A DNA stretch of 30,731 bases. It comes from a bacterium. Its GTDB lineage: Bacteria; Cyanobacteriota; Vampirovibrionia; Obscuribacterales; Obscuribacteraceae. Under the pieces are notes generated by a model. It was not told the DNA's origin. It made no database searches and saw nothing but the letters and a program-made list of their open reading frames with translations. Shown in pieces: positions 3,776-30,731 of the stretch. The number at the start of each line of letters is the position of its first letter. The stretch's first letter is position 1. The DNA is taken from positions 1-30,731 of the forward strand of contig JAUIJG010000005.1 in the NCBI GenBank assembly GCA_030431355.1, read 5' to 3'. The translations under genes were made by a program, and so were the position numbers.

Positions 3776-6316
3776 GTGTCTGATCTTAAACAGTACGCCA
3801 ACACAATAATGACGCCCGGGGCACAAGAAATATTCGACTTGAGAAGAGATGAACTGTCTCGAAGAACAGACCTGCTATTTACCACACTGATAGTTCTGGA
3901 ATGGATAGCAATGATTGTGGTGGCAGTAATAGTATCACCGCTAGCCTGGGAAGGACGGAATAGCTACATCCATCCCCATATTTTTGTGGCCGTAGTGCTT
4001 GGTGGTCTAGTTACTGCGCCGGTGGTCTATCTATACCTGACTTCCCCAGGGAAACCAATCACCAGGCATATGATTGCCTTCTCTCAGTCCCTTATCTCAG
4101 CTCTGCTCATTCACCTGACCGGAGGTCGAATTGAAACACACTTTCACATATTTGGCTCCCTGGCGTTCCTTGCTTTCTACAGAGACTGGAGGGTTTTCAT
4201 AACCGCTGTATCAGTAATTGTCCTTGATCATATGATTCGCGGAATTTACGTGCCCGAATCGGTTTATGGGGTTCTAACTGCAAGCCCCTGGCGTACAGTA
4301 GAACACGCCGGCTGGGTATTGTTCGAGAGTTTTTTTCTGGTCAAAGTCTGCAAACAAAATGAATTGGAGATGAAAGCCCTGGCAATGCAAAGGGACGAGT
4401 TGCAAACTACGAACAGCAGAATCCAGGAACTGGCCGAAGAGAGATCCAGTGAGCTTAAAAAGAAAGAGAGCCTCCTTGCGGCCATCGTGGACAACTCATA
4501 TGACGCAATCATCGCCATCGATCGAGAAGGAATTATAAAAAGCTGGAACGCAGGAGCTTCGAATCTCTATGGCTACGCAAGACAGGATGCCCTGGGGAAA
4601 GATATAAGATTGCTGATTCCAGAGAACTCTATAGAAGAATTTGATGAGATTATTGAATCGATCTATAAAGGAGGAGTGGAAAAGGAGATCGAGACCTTGA
4701 GGCTGAGGGAAGATCAGATTACTGTAGATGTAGCTCTGACTGTCTCTCCAATTATAAATGAAAAGCAGGAGTTCATCGGCTGTTCGTTGATAGAACGAGA
4801 CATAACCCACAGAAAGGAAGTAGAAAAGCGGATCAGTGAATTCTACTCAACCGTCTCCCACGAACTTAGAACACCACTGACTTCTATCAGGGGTGCACTA
4901 AGTCTTATTGATGATGACATTATTGAGCTTGATTCGAATGAAGCCAAAGAGATGATTCAAGTAGCAAGATCAAGTTCAGAGAGGCTTGTACGACTGATCA
5001 ACGATATTTTGGACCTGCGCAAAATTGAAGCAGGAAAGCTGGAACTACATCTGGAGAGAATGAACACCACGGATGTGGTTAAGCAAGGCATAGAAACAAT
5101 GCAGGGAATGGCTGACAAAGCAGATGTTAAACTTGCCACCAATCTCGATGGTAAGTCCGATGTTCTGGTCGACTCGGATAGAATGACGCAAGTTATCTCC
5201 AATCTTCTCTCCAACGCTATCAAGTATTCAGATCCGGGAAATCTCGTACTTCTTTCCGTGGATCGAGGGGAAAATGGACAGGTAAGATTTTCGGTCACCG
5301 ATGAAGGAGAAGGAATTTCCTCGGACCAGCTAGACAAATTATTCGGCAAGTTCCAACAAATCGACTCTTCCGACACCAGACCGAAGGAAGGCACTGGTCT
5401 CGGACTGGCTATTTCAAAAGCCATAGTAGAGCAACACAATGGCACCATCGGTGTTCACAGCAAGCCTGGAACCGGCTCTACTTTTTGGTTTGAGTTGCCC
5501 TATGAAAACTGCGATAGCGAAGAACCCCTTCGGTCCTGCGAAGAAACAGAGAAGTACACTCTCATCATCGAAGACGATCTTAACCTGGCGCAACTTCTAA
5601 AGCTTTGCTTAAAGAAAAGAGGGATCAAAACCAGACACGCAACCTCTATAAGACAAGCCTCAGAGTTTTTGGAAGCGCTTACTCCATCCGCGATTATTCT
5701 TGATGTGATGCTTCCCGATGGAAACGGATTGGAATTTATTGAGAATCAAAAAGCGACAAAAGTGCTGGAGAATGTTCCTGTCATAGTAGTAAGTGGTCAT
5801 GCAGAAAGTGAGTTTGAGTATGCTCAACCGTTTATCTATGACTGGTATCAAAAGCCTTTTGACTTTGAAGAACTCATAGCGACAATCGGAAATATCTTAA
5901 ATGGCAAGAGACATGTTTTGGTTATCGAAGACGACGATGAAACAAGAGCTGTGATTACAGCCCAACTAAAAACTCTGAACGCAGTCTGCCTTGAGGCAGC
6001 CGACGGCAAAAGCGCCATAGAAATTGCAAGAAAGAACCATCCGGACGTTATCGTACTGGATGTGAATTTGCCCCAGATGGACGGATTTGAGGTGGTAAAA
6101 GCTTTGAGCGGAACTCCCCCTCCGGCCCTTCTTGTCTATTCGGGAATAGACCTGGACAAAGAGGATAGAAAACGACTCAATCTAGGAATGACTAAACATC
6201 TAACCAAAGGACGAGTCAGCCCAAAACAATTCGTGTCAACAGTAGAAGAACTGCTGGAGAGGGTGAACAAGCCGGAAAGCCAAATGAGTCCGGAAAGAGA
6301 TAGCCAGAAACAATGA
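3776..6316 (+). CDS. Membrane hybrid histidine kinase, PAS-HisKA-HATPase-REC-REC
   Basis: The 846-residue protein has an N-terminal integral membrane region (about 33-190, five to six hydrophobic segments including LTGGRIETHFHIFGSLAF). A PAS domain follows (about 232-345), then a HisKA domain with the phospho-accepting H362 in SHELRTPL. The HATPase_c domain has its N box at N476/N480 and a GTGLGLAI G2 box near 539-546. Two receivers end the protein: REC1 with D643 in LDVMLPDGNG and REC2 with D762 in LDVNLPQMDG. Start is GTG 3776, with AGGGAGAG 8 bases before it. The stop overlaps the next gene in ATGA. Phosphate presumably passes from H362 through a receiver to an HPt, for which the two receiver-HPt genes nearby are candidates (inference). 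The signal is unknown. Confidence 0.92.
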   Translation: MSDLKQYANTIMTPGAQEIFDLRRDELSRRTDLLFTTLIVLEWIAMIVVAVIVSPLAWEGRNSYIHPHIFVAVVLGGLVTAPVVYLYLTSPGKPITRHMIAFSQSLISALLIHLTGGRIETHFHIFGSLAFLAFYRDWRVFITAVSVIVLDHMIRGIYVPESVYGVLTASPWRTVEHAGWVLFESFFLVKVCKQNELEMKALAMQRDELQTTNSRIQELAEERSSELKKKESLLAAIVDNSYDAIIAIDREGIIKSWNAGASNLYGYARQDALGKDIRLLIPENSIEEFDEIIESIYKGGVEKEIETLRLREDQITVDVALTVSPIINEKQEFIGCSLIERDITHRKEVEKRISEFYSTVSHELRTPLTSIRGALSLIDDDIIELDSNEAKEMIQVARSSSERLVRLINDILDLRKIEAGKLELHLERMNTTDVVKQGIETMQGMADKADVKLATNLDGKSDVLVDSDRMTQVISNLLSNAIKYSDPGNLVLLSVDRGENGQVRFSVTDEGEGISSDQLDKLFGKFQQIDSSDTRPKEGTGLGLAISKAIVEQHNGTIGVHSKPGTGSTFWFELPYENCDSEEPLRSCEETEKYTLIIEDDLNLAQLLKLCLKKRGIKTRHATSIRQASEFLEALTPSAIILDVMLPDGNGLEFIENQKATKVLENVPVIVVSGHAESEFEYAQPFIYDWYQKPFDFEELIATIGNILNGKRHVLVIEDDDETRAVITAQLKTLNAVCLEAADGKSAIEIARKNHPDVIVLDVNLPQMDGFEVVKALSGTPPPALLVYSGIDLDKEDRKRLNLGMTKHLTKGRVSPKQFVSTVEELLERVNKPESQMSPERDSQKQ

Positions 6317-7434
6317 AAGTAAGAGTGCTGCTAATAGAAGACAATAAAGCAGACCAGGCTATTATCAAAACTTGCCTGGAAAGTAACACTTACAAACTTA
6401 AGACCGTCTCCACGCTGGAAGAAGCTATCGCTTCCCTGAAAAAGACATATGATCTGGTCTTGATGGATCTGGGATTGCCTGACAGCAAGGGGATATCAAC
6501 TTATCACAAAGTTAGAGATAGAGCCCCCGCGCTTCCAATCATAGTACTAAGCGGAATCAATGATCAACAAATAGCCCTCGATGCCATTTCTAAAGGAGCC
6601 CAGGACTTTCTAGTGAAAGGCAAGTTCAATCCTCGCAATCTTAGCCGGACCATACGCTTTGCTCTATTAAGACATGAGATGGAAAAGATGAAGGTGGAAA
6701 AGGAGAAGATTAAAGAGAGAGAGAACTTTAGCGCCATGCTGAATCATAACCTGAGGGTGCCACTAATCGGAATGGAAAATGTTCTTCACCCCCTGATCAA
6801 TGGTGTCTATGGGGAACTCTCGGAAGAGGTAAAAGAAGCTATGAAAACTCTTCTGAGGGCTACCAACAATACCCATAGCCACATCAAGAGGGCACTGGAG
6901 GCATATCAACTCAATACGAAAGAGAGTTGTCTTCCCCTCGAAAAACTCGACCTTAAAGCGATTCTAAATCGCTGTATCGAAGAAGTAAAGCACTTTTACG
7001 CAAAAAAAAATGTCAGCATACATCTTGAAATTTCCGATGAGCTTCCGAATTTAACCGGAAATGAATATTCTATCTATACACTATTTCTAAACCTGATAGA
7101 TAATGCACTCAAATTCAGTCCCCAGGGTGAAACAATACAGATTTTCGCCTCCGCTATAGAGCAAGATAGAGTTTTAATCGCTCTTAAAAACAAAGGTCAA
7201 CCTATTCCCCAGGACAAACAGGAAAAAGCCTTTGAGTACTTCTTCTCCACCTCTCCCCAAAACAACTCAGGAATGGCCAGGAATAGTGACACCGGTGTAA
7301 GTATCGGTGTGGGACTCTATCTTTGTAAACGAATCGTGTCCGAGCATGGCGGAACAATAAAGTTGGACAGCGATTCAAACGGCACAAAAGTGGTAGTTGA
7401 ACTTCCCCTCACAAGAGACTCAGTCACCTTTTGA
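6313..7434 (+). CDS. Receiver-histidine kinase fusion (REC-HisKA-HATPase)
   Basis: The 373-residue soluble protein begins with a receiver (D52 in LVLMDLGLPDSKG; K102 in FLVKGKF). A charged helix (about 118-138), a dimerisation/phospho-acceptor helix and an ATPase domain (N260/N264; final GVGLYLCKRIV) follow. The H box reads LNHNLRVPL around H145, with Asn where the usual HELRTP has Glu. The ATP-binding D box is replaced by KNKG (Asn for Asp), a tolerated variant in some kinases. The Glu next to His is needed for efficient phosphotransfer in HisKA kinases, so activity may be altered. ATG overlaps the hybrid kinase stop by 4 bases, so the two are co-translated. Its tail resembles the fragment at 2-178. 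The 3' end overlaps the convergent Rcp gene by 15 bases. Confidence 0.87.
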   Translation: MKVRVLLIEDNKADQAIIKTCLESNTYKLKTVSTLEEAIASLKKTYDLVLMDLGLPDSKGISTYHKVRDRAPALPIIVLSGINDQQIALDAISKGAQDFLVKGKFNPRNLSRTIRFALLRHEMEKMKVEKEKIKERENFSAMLNHNLRVPLIGMENVLHPLINGVYGELSEEVKEAMKTLLRATNNTHSHIKRALEAYQLNTKESCLPLEKLDLKAILNRCIEEVKHFYAKKNVSIHLEISDELPNLTGNEYSIYTLFLNLIDNALKFSPQGETIQIFASAIEQDRVLIALKNKGQPIPQDKQEKAFEYFFSTSPQNNSGMARNSDTGVSIGVGLYLCKRIVSEHGGTIKLDSDSNGTKVVVELPLTRDSVTF

Positions 7435-25254: not shown

Positions 25255-26652
25255 ATGTTCAAGAAAGTTCTAATTGCCAACCGTGGCGAAATTGCCGTCC
25301 GCATCATTCAAGCCTGTCGCGAGCTTGACATCCAATCGGTGGCTATCTTTTCAGAACCCGATCAGGACAGCAAACATGTCAAGCTAGCCAGCGAGACATG
25401 GAAACTTGAAGGTCCCCCCAATCAGGTTTATTTGGACGTAGAACAGATCATCAAACTAGCCCGGGAATGCAAAGCCGACGCAATCCATCCCGGCTACGGC
25501 TTCCTGGCCGAAAACGCCAACTTCGCCGACCTCTGCGCCAAAAATGATATTGTTTTCATCGGACCCAAGTCAGACATTATAAATATGATGGGTTCCAAAG
25601 TTGAGTCCAGAAGAGTAATGGACAAAGCCGGCGTACCGGTTGTTCCTGGAACCACCGATCCGGTAACCAGCCCGGAAGAAGTGAAAAAGTTAGCCACCGA
25701 GTACGGTTATCCCGTGGCGATCAAAGCTAGCGCCGGTGGTGGTGGCAGAGGTCTGAGAGTAGTCCGCAAAGAAGAAGAGGTGGACAATGCTCTGGCCGGA
25801 GCCCAACGTGAAGGGGCATCTTACTTCGGCAGCAATGAAGTTTATGTCGAGAAATATTTGGACAAACCTCGCCACATAGAAGTTCAGGTAATCGGAGACA
25901 ATCACGGAAACGTAGTTCATCTCTTCGAACGGGATTGCTCCAGCCAGAGACGGCACCAGAAACTTTTAGAAGAATCTCCGGCGGCAAGACTGGACAAGAA
26001 AGTAAAAGACGAACTCCTGGCCGCAGCAGTGAAAGGCACCAGGGCTCTGGGCTACTCTTCAGCAGGGACACTGGAGTTCCTGGTTGAAGACGACAAGTTC
26101 TACTTCCTGGAGATGAACACAAGAGTTCAGGTAGAACACCCGATAACAGAGATGGTTACCGGAGTAGATATAGTTAAGGAGCAGATCAGAGTAGCGTTTG
26201 GCGAGAAGCTTTCGGTCACTCAGGAAGAGCTTTCCCAGCGCGGTCACGCGATCGAATGCCGAATAAATGCCGAAAATCCGGATAAGAACTTCCTTCCCAA
26301 CCCCGGCACCATCGGTCGATACGAAGAGCCCCAGCACCCCTGGTCCCGGGTTGATAGCGCCTGTTACCCAGGCTACACCGTTTTGCCCTTCTACGACTCT
26401 CTTCTGGCCAAACTAATCGTCTGGGGCAAAGATAGAGAAGAAGCGATTGCCAGAATGAAACTGGCTCTGCAAGATTTCGTGATCGAAGGGGTCGCCACGA
26501 CCATTCCTTTCCATCTGGCTCTTCTGGATGATCCAAATTTCCTCTCCGGCGAAGTAACCACCTCTTACGTCGAAAAAGAGATGATGAAAAACTGGAAAGA
26601 CTTGAAAGAGAAGCTGGAAAAAAAAAGTTCTCAGGCAGTAACCAAGAGCTAG
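25255..26652 (+). CDS. accC: Biotin carboxylase subunit of acetyl/acyl-CoA carboxylase
   Basis: The 465-residue protein carboxylates biotin on its carrier using ATP and bicarbonate. It shows MFKKVLIANRGEIAVRIIQA, the HPGYGFLAENANFA motif, the ATP-grasp glycine loop KASAGGGGRGLRVV, the catalytic EMNTRVQVEHPITEM and RINAENP. ATG 25255 is chosen because family members start there; TTG 25243 is in frame but abuts its AAGGA. The final codons run GAA AAA AAA AGT (26617-26628), a slippery A_AAA_AAA site. A -1 shift here continues into the carrier-domain frame, giving a 608-residue BC-BCCP fusion; without it the protein ends 9 codons later at TAG. Confidence 0.95.
   Translation: MFKKVLIANRGEIAVRIIQACRELDIQSVAIFSEPDQDSKHVKLASETWKLEGPPNQVYLDVEQIIKLARECKADAIHPGYGFLAENANFADLCAKNDIVFIGPKSDIINMMGSKVESRRVMDKAGVPVVPGTTDPVTSPEEVKKLATEYGYPVAIKASAGGGGRGLRVVRKEEEVDNALAGAQREGASYFGSNEVYVEKYLDKPRHIEVQVIGDNHGNVVHLFERDCSSQRRHQKLLEESPAARLDKKVKDELLAAAVKGTRALGYSSAGTLEFLVEDDKFYFLEMNTRVQVEHPITEMVTGVDIVKEQIRVAFGEKLSVTQEELSQRGHAIECRINAENPDKNFLPNPGTIGRYEEPQHPWSRVDSACYPGYTVLPFYDSLLAKLIVWGKDREEAIARMKLALQDFVIEGVATTIPFHLALLDDPNFLSGEVTTSYVEKEMMKNWKDLKEKLEKKSSQAVTKS
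26619..26625 (+). other. Slippery heptamer A_AAA_AAA (candidate -1 frameshift site)
   Basis: Nine As (26618-26626) follow GG near the end of accC. In the accC frame they read GAA AAA AAA AGT, so A_AAA_AAA is in the correct phase for tandem slippage by -1. The new frame continues AAG TTC TCA and stays open to the carrier-domain stop at 27078-27080. The run could equally be an indel mutation or a sequencing error in a homopolymer. Confidence 0.6.
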
Positions 26653-26750
26653 AAGAGACTCAAGGCAACGCCGACACCAGCGTTAGATCTAATAAACGCT
26701 CCTTCGAAATCGAGGTTGGGCAGCGGGTTTTCCGTGTCTCCATCTCTGAG

Positions 26751-27080
26751 ATGGTGTCGAGCGATGCTGCGGCGGTAGAACAAAGTTCAGACCAGAGAAA
26801 AGGTCCCCGCCAGAAGAAGAAGAGACAGGACCCCAGAAGAACCGGCGAATACACTGCCATCAATACCGGGGAAGTAAGAGCTTCCATGCACGGGCTCGTA
26901 AAAGAGATTCTGGTGCAGAAAGGCGCACGGGTGGAAAATGGTCAGAGATTGATGGTATTCGAAGCCATGAAAATGGAATCTGATATAGTGGCACTTAAAG
27001 ATGGAACCGTGACCGAGATAGCGGTTACGGCCGGTGAGACCGTGGACAACGAGAGCCTGTTGCTTAAAATCGGAGATTAG
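26751..27080 (+). CDS. Biotin carboxyl carrier domain; real N terminus probably upstream via frameshift
   Basis: The C-terminal 65 residues are a biotinyl domain: GEVRASMHGLVKEILVQKGA, then VFEAMKMESDIV with the biotin-accepting lysine in EAMKM, then VDNESLLLKIGD. The usual Pro before Gly-Leu-Val is His. The first 35 residues are basic and low-complexity. ATG 26751 has no RBS. The same frame is open back to 26532 and encodes RSFEIEVGQRVFRVSISEM just before this ATG, which resembles the N-terminal strands of carrier subunits, but no ATG, GTG or TTG occurs there. The segment is therefore most simply reached by a -1 shift from accC. It is followed two bases later by ispF. Confidence 0.8.
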   Translation: MVSSDAAAVEQSSDQRKGPRQKKKRQDPRRTGEYTAINTGEVRASMHGLVKEILVQKGARVENGQRLMVFEAMKMESDIVALKDGTVTEIAVTAGETVDNESLLLKIGD

Positions 27081-27082
27081 CT

Positions 27083-30297: not shown

Positions 30298-30675
30298 ATG
30301 ACCACCTCAATCATAGGAAAAGAAGAGCTGGAATCTGCCGCATCAGTAGTCAAAAAATTCCTTGCGCCCACACCGCTAGTTCGCTCGGCATTGCTGAGCG
30401 ATGAGTTGAAAACACCGGTGTATCTAAAATTGGAAAGTCTGCAGCCGACCCATTCATTCAAAGTTCGCGGTGCCCTGAACGCGATCAGTTCTCTAACGGA
30501 GGAGGTTAGAAAGCGCGGCATAGTGACAGCATCAGGCGGCAATCACGGTCTTGGCGTCACCCTTGCTTGCAATTTGCTGGGAACCACCGCCAGGGTTTAC
30601 CTGCCGGTTAAAACCCCGGAGTTAAAAGTAAGCACTCTCAAAAAGCTGGGGGCGGAAGTTTTTAAACGAAGGTGA
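30298..30675 (+). pseudogene. Threonine/serine dehydratase, N-terminal fragment ending in a chimeric join
   Basis: The first about 121 codons encode the small domain of a fold-type II PLP enzyme of the threonine dehydratase/serine racemase family. TPLVRSALLSDEL, the PLP-lysine motif THSFKVRGALNA (K55), ASGGNHGLGVTLAC and [16 protein letters not shown] are visible. Family members are usually 310-330 residues, but homology stops near 30660 and the frame ends at TGA 30673-30675 after four unrelated residues. Downstream sequence belongs to a different enzyme family. The start ATG 30298 has AGAGGA 8 bases upstream. I call it broken as read here; the cause may be assembly rather than biology. Confidence 0.8.
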
Positions 30676-30731
30676 CGAAATTATTCTAAGCCAGATGGAA
30701 CATCATTCGAACATTGTACCATGGCAGATAC
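30662..30731 (+). CDS. SufS-type cysteine desulfurase, internal fragment at window end
   Basis: Read from 30662, the frame gives [20 protein letters not shown], then WQI, and runs off the window. [11 protein letters not shown] is the conserved PLP-pocket segment of class II cysteine desulfurases (E. coli SufS has GDNIIISQMEHHANIVPWQ). In an intact SufS this lies roughly 110-130 residues from the N terminus, yet the sequence immediately before is a threonine dehydratase in another frame. No start codon or N-terminal SufS sequence is present. It is therefore a fragment created by a join near 30660. Confidence 0.85.

Follow-up and report, generated by a model that had tools for sequence, protein, structure and literature searches.

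The closest described counterparts of the locus reported here are two genes in which a run of adenines is associated with a shorter and a longer product. In the dnaX gene of Thermus thermophilus, transcriptional slippage at a coding-strand run of nine As (A9) proceeds at about 50%, and one gene gives two products, tau and gamma, with a common N-terminal part, as described in passages of PMC1088944. In chlD, a metabolic enzyme gene, a poly-A −1 frameshift gives a short and a longer subunit of Mg-chelatase (PMC9227772 and PMC3711429), and frameshifting in Mg-chelatase cassettes amounted to 10%, 40% and 63% at 7, 9 and 11 As, respectively, in the section of PMC3711429 that deals with them. Insertions in homopolymer runs rise exponentially with run length in both E. 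coli and Buchnera (part of PMC5574713). A frame transition at a biotin carboxylase gene is also represented in the GeneTack 'Biotin carboxylase' cluster 697472870, with a poly-A/T stretch near the predicted site in 73% of its 128 members (tabulated in PMC3711429). With regard to the protein itself, the AccA3-type α subunits of acyl-CoA carboxylases comprise biotin carboxylase (BC) and biotin carrier (BCCP) in a single frame.

The locus described here lies in a 30,731-nucleotide stretch of bacterial DNA (the window), the host clade of which is Obscuribacterales-like, as placed from the nearest named records. A complete BC and a biotin carrier with the biotinyl-lysine motif are both encoded at this locus, and a single polypeptide is predicted only via a frameshift. 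An earlier, sequence-only reading of the window had proposed a −1 frameshift at an A9 run joining the two, and had offered a programmed event or a homopolymer indel as its possible origins.

Organization of the locus

The features of the locus are the following.

25255–26652, + strand: BC frame, from ATG 25255 to the stop TAG at 26650-26652, 465 aa
26618–26626, + strand: A9 run, the proposed slippage site, with the in-phase heptamer A_AAA_AAA at 26619-26625
26650–26652, + strand: TAG closing the zero frame, 8 codons past EKK, likewise in the relative L001
26625–27080, + strand: −1 frame after slippage, comprising a linker, the conserved FEIEV segment and the biotin carrier domain, with the stop TAG at 27078-27080
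26703–26750, + strand: FEIEVGQRVFRVSISE segment of the carrier frame, 5′ of any ATG/GTG/TTG, with codon-level constraint

The BC frame contains the Pfam domains Biotin_carb_N, CPSase_L_D2 and Biotin_carb_C and, in the product made without a frameshift, ends in the zero-frame tail EKKSSQAVTKS. Pfam Biotin_lipoyl is matched at 1.8e-15 by the translation of 26532-27082, which includes FEAMKMES, the MKM of which we take to be the biotinylation motif. The carrier frame is −1 relative to that of BC, as had been proposed; TGA 26529-26531 precedes its opening at 26532, and its earliest ATG, GTG or TTG is ATG 26751, in agreement with the earlier reading. The two frames overlap by 121 nt, within which the A9 run is located. 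Across the run the zero frame reads GAA AAA AAA AGT, so that the heptamer lies in exact phase for a −1 slip, as claimed, and it does so in L001 as well. The joined product would measure 608 aa, the length originally given, and can be aligned with BC-BCCP proteins of 598-628 aa that are encoded in a single frame. The comparison in size with fused α subunits of Actinobacteria, also part of that reading, agrees with the fused relative P0003, which matches the mycobacterial acyl-CoA carboxylase α3 over residues 3-594 of 598.

At the right end of the window (30298-30731), the ORF of a PALP-type (threonine dehydratase-like) protein is interrupted after 125 residues, and about 90 final bases correspond, in another frame, to an internal part of a SufS-like cysteine desulfurase, with an overlap of roughly 20-26 nt between the two matches. 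This arrangement looks like a chimeric assembly join.

Conservation of the frame split

The same arrangement was found in L001, a syntenic locus of the metagenome-assembled genome RI_106 (G001), with L116 as additional sequence of its contig. The window and L001 have in common the order MreB-like gene, glycosyltransferase-like gene, 3-hydroxyacyl-CoA dehydrogenase, BC, carrier, ispF, FAD-binding monooxygenase-like gene and another shared ORF. The carriers are 68% identical. In L001 the BC and carrier frames are split at the same place and in the same −1 relation, at a run of ten As (A10, 5994-6003) that reads GAA AAA AAA AAC, and the BC frame ends, like that of the window, at a TAG 8 codons past EKK. 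Since the −1 frame of L001 opens at 5989 and its zero frame closes at 6028, the frame switch must fall within these 40 nt, which contain the A10. The run seems to have varied between nine and ten As through an adjacent base change that left the frame as it was: the codon in which the run ends is AGT in the window and AAC in L001, and the protein P0022 has N at the position of the window's S.

Database searches extended the split to further species. Ten proteins were returned for the carrier. One is that of the window itself, present on 8 contigs; six are close relatives (63-76% identity), and the remaining three are distant short carriers (46-48%). The BC tail as query gave four proteins of 463-465 aa (P0022, P0023, P0024 and P0025), which stop 6-8 codons past EKK with the tails EKKNSQAVTKS, EKKSSQAVIKR, EKKNSQPLAKS and EKKNPISIK, respectively. 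P0025 ends 2 codons before the others, and the tail of the zero frame is accordingly variable. Near-copies of the window or of L001 account for two of the four BC tails (P0022, 99% identical to the window BC, and P0024, close to L001) and for one carrier (P0017, 97% identical to that of L001). P0023 and the carrier P0015 are each found on contigs of 1980 bases, and P0025 and the carrier P0016 on contigs of 37214 bases; each pair probably represents one locus. The count of As in relatives was checked in DNA for L001, where A10 still leaves the frames split; P0022-P0025 were seen as protein tails, in which K could be AAA or AAG, and the A-run is known from the DNA of the window (A9) and of L001 (A10).

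A sequencing or assembly indel was also considered, since homopolymers are commonly sites of such errors and the window has a probable chimeric join at its right end. This explanation is nevertheless extremely improbable, as the same split recurs in an independently assembled genome (L001) and in proteins of further species, and the window's own carrier is present on 8 contigs. As judged from the sequences compared, the frame split is real and conserved, being shared by relatives, and is most likely a retained, probably programmed, frameshift rather than a pair of ordinary genes. Of the two origins first put forward, sequencing error is decided against by the relatives and frameshifting is supported, with the addition that transcriptional slippage fits at least as well as ribosomal slippage.

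Runs of this length are not rare in this DNA, and little is proved by a run of As alone; the weight of the case comes from a relative that has such a run in the same phase. According to a first-order Markov estimate, 0.74 runs of at least nine As are expected per window (GC content 47%) and 0.003 in the 121-nt overlap. The sequence GAAAAAAAAA occurs once in the window and is present in 29 of 100 shuffles. The probability that the wobble A is shared by chance in the E, K and K codons of both DNA sequences is about 0.09 (16/37 × 12/26 × 12/26). The window contains a second A9 at 7002-7010, within an unbroken kinase-like ORF (6313-7434) whose product would be shortened by slippage; no orthologue of this ORF was found in G001, in which the top match has 27% identity.

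Possible translation of the carrier frame upstream of ATG 26751

Substitutions between the window and L001 were counted at codon positions 1, 2 and 3 of the given frame. In BC they number 54/455, 30/454 and 220/454, respectively, and in the −1 frame after 26751 they number 24/108, 14/108 and 54/107. In the −1 frame at 26703-26750 the counts are 4/16, 2/16 and 12/16, a third-position bias which argues for protein-level constraint on FEIEVGQRVFRVSISE, even though the frame contains no earlier ATG, GTG or TTG. A conserved peptide in this stretch had been noted before; it stands, with the correction that the peptide as first written begins at 26700, one codon before 26703. The intervening 26653-26702 shows no codon-phase bias (8/15, 7/16 and 9/16), as expected of a linker and equally of untranslated DNA. 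The segment of fused P0003 that matches 26703-26750 (residues 480-495) forms two strands, predicted at low confidence, in an AlphaFold model with a mean pLDDT of 65.6, the pLDDT of this hairpin region being about 43.

These counts bear on the possibility that BC and carrier are two separately translated genes, the carrier starting at its own codon 3′ of the BC stop. Gene callers do list the carriers as separate ORFs: all six close relatives were called as short ORFs of their own, the called starts of P0015 and P0016 align with window ATG 26751, and an ATC is in frame at 26709, inside the conserved stretch. The called starts are, however, distributed over five places, four of which lie in or after the SFEVEV stretch, itself under codon constraint. 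When start-like codons are extended to seven (ATG, GTG, TTG, CTG, ATT, ATC and ATA), the sole one between the opening of the carrier frame at 26532 and 26703 is CTG 26592, within the BC gene, and none is present in the window between 26595 and 26702; the ATA 5989 and ATC 6037 found 5′ of SFE in L001 are not shared by the window. As had been stated, no purine-rich ribosome-binding site is visible by eye before ATG 26751 (CCATCTCTGAG). A promoter or terminator at the junction was considered and rejected: a single site resembling each was found (promoter-like, 27043-27070), compared with means of 0.5 and 0.7, respectively, in shuffled sequence. Two independent genes are accordingly an improbable arrangement.

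Proposed mechanism

The explanation that we favour, and regard as probable, is that slippage at the A-run joins BC and carrier, with slippage of the RNA polymerase preferred, such that one gene would give both BC and BC-BCCP. The gene would encode an AccA3-like α subunit (BC-BCCP) of an acyl-CoA carboxylase; its ancestor would have been a single frame, relative to which the coding A-run of this clade lacks one A. RNA polymerase would slip on the A9 or A10 and, by a net gain of one A (modulo 3), bring the carrier into frame in a fraction of the transcripts, and the remaining transcripts would stop 7 or 11 codons counted from GAA and provide free biotin carboxylase. The run would then determine the proportion of BC to BC-BCCP made from the one gene. 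The frames of both sequences are compatible with this scheme: with one A more (or two fewer) each continues from the GAA codon through the carrier for 153-154 residues, with the templated count each stops after 11 codons from GAA, and with one A fewer each stops after 7, so that either non-fused reading yields a BC of about normal length. The sequences themselves show the arrangement of the locus, its presence in relatives, the single split clade among fused genes and the codon constraint ahead of any usual start codon of the carrier frame. The making of the fusion or of either protein, a transcriptional rather than ribosomal slip, the usefulness of the mixture, a benefit of free BC and a ratio of BC to fusion that is set on purpose are what we infer.

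The same two products could be obtained if the ribosome, with its paired tRNA-Lys, slipped by −1 on A_AAA_AAA in the window, or on A_AAA_AAA/A_AAA_AAC in L001. The heptamer is in exact phase in both DNA sequences, and the A-rich consensus heptamers given in a section of PMC3711429 include both A_AAA_AAA and A_AAA_AAC. A downstream pseudoknot or an upstream Shine–Dalgarno-like stimulator had been suggested as a feature to look for. Four folds around the run in the two sequences gave z scores of −0.27, −0.57, −1.13 and −1.79, the last for L001, which folds slightly better than its shuffles at the run (11 of 200 as good) and may have a local structure there, the remaining three being ordinary. 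No conserved RNA stimulator was seen in the two sequences in pseudoknot-free folds, with Shine–Dalgarno-like elements judged by eye; a hairpin of L001 (CTAGC/GCTAG) corresponds in the window to sequence with no pairing visible by eye, and the sequence directly 5′ of the run is not conserved. The runs of 9-10 As, moreover, exceed the 7 needed by a ribosome. Slippage of nine-A runs in a described system, the dependence of slippage on run length and the mostly ordinary folds together lead us to prefer transcriptional slippage, ribosomal slippage being unlikely as the sole route and possible alongside it; the two routes can act together.

Phylogenetic distribution

A BC tree of 21 rows was built with the canonical AccC of G001 as the far row (three of the eight named fused loci did not enter). 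The six split rows form one group with support of 100/100 among 14 fused rows, nearest to fused P0003 and P0004 (92/87). In a survey of 53 genomes of the order, a carrier match at 1e-15 was found in 40: one is split (G001), 38 have the match in an open frame (330-724 codons) shared with a BC match and one (G050) is cut by a contig end. Both motifs are in one frame in 20 of the first 29 loci, L001 not being in one frame and the other 8, which lacked one motif, not being compared; loci L030-L080 were covered by a scripted scan only, which reported none of them. A search with the joined protein gave nine matches, all fused, of 598-628 aa, with 36-47% identity in the carrier part compared. The best explanation of these results is that BC-BCCP was ancestrally in one frame and that the split arose in one clade among fused genes.

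Two or three BC matches are present in 38 of the 53 genomes, and 33 of these belong to the 38 fused genomes. In G001 there are two, of which the second is the canonical accC, adjoined by a carrier-like ORF (identified as a carrier by eye). P0001 shares 58% identity with this canonical accC and 77% with fused P0003; the paralogue that became split is thus the fused one.

A non-adaptive version of the history overlaps with the preferred explanation. In it, a single ancestral loss of an A became fixed, slippage restores enough of the fusion and free BC has no role. The single split clade among fused genes is as this version would have it. Slippage is said to rescue broken genes of Buchnera and Blochmannia. 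Slippage cases are named for both genera in the part of the review PMC5009743 considered here. A single gained A in a mutation-prone run would, however, fuse the frames again, yet no fused member of the split clade was found among the nine joined-protein matches, from a search that needs shared short exact words, or the four BC-tail matches. By argument rather than measurement, this suggests that the split state is kept. The GC content of the window also differs from that of an AT-rich endosymbiont, and no frame-restoring transcription error was observed in the portion of PMC5574713 concerned. We consider this version possible, but less probable than not.

Functional context

The top Foldseek match of the model of fused P0003 is a Mycobacterium long-chain acyl-CoA carboxylase, and the top five are all acyl-CoA carboxylase chains. 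G001 possesses two full-length carboxyltransferase genes, located on contigs other than that of the split gene; the contig of the split gene has two weaker carboxyltransferase matches about 17 kb away, which are accD/accA-like by their place in the profile. A stand-alone carrier of G001, 79 aa in length (L142, 6537-6779, − strand), adjoins HMG-CoA lyase and enoyl-CoA hydratase genes, on a contig in which no biotin carboxylase or carboxyltransferase match was found. Free BC might work in trans with stand-alone carriers and BC-BCCP serve the unlinked carboxyltransferases, their ratio being written in the length of the A-run; this assignment of roles is doubtful. Weak short carrier matches are found in fused relatives too, which speaks against a need for free BC. 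A need for free BC for want of another accC was considered and rejected, as G001 has its second, canonical accC. As a separate observation, one response-regulator/kinase query taken from the window had 77 matches in G001, which point to a rich set of signalling proteins. A search of viral contigs gave 7 pattern matches and no relative of the locus.

Comparison with known systems

If the proposed joining is correct, a central metabolic enzyme is added to the frameshift-dependent genes of bacteria, and fused relatives and one split clade of several species provide a before-and-after. The locus makes it testable whether slippage on a plain A-run can serve as a lasting control of how much catalytic domain is made relative to its carrier. 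Gene callers mask such a fusion when the carriers are listed as separate short genes. No earlier report of this carboxylase frameshift was found in the open-access literature, most subscription papers being outside this coverage, and the word biotin is absent from the first 300,000 of the 475,107 characters of the review PMC5009743.

The GeneTack biotin carboxylase cluster, compared by its table in PMC3711429, differs in direction (+1), in that 75% have a start codon no more than 10 nt from the first stop and in being classed as translational coupling. AccA3-type α subunits, matched by P0003 and by the fused relatives with which the joined product aligns, have in one frame the domains that are here distributed over two. 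Mg-chelatase is an unrelated enzyme, for which, in the sources cited above, frameshifting efficiency has been determined and each of the two products is a named subunit. In dnaX, as described in part of PMC1088944, the templated count of As leads to the long product, whereas here the templated count leads to the short product and slippage would lead to the long one, in a different enzyme and as read from the sequence alone. The mechanism is thus of a known kind, and the gene is new to it.
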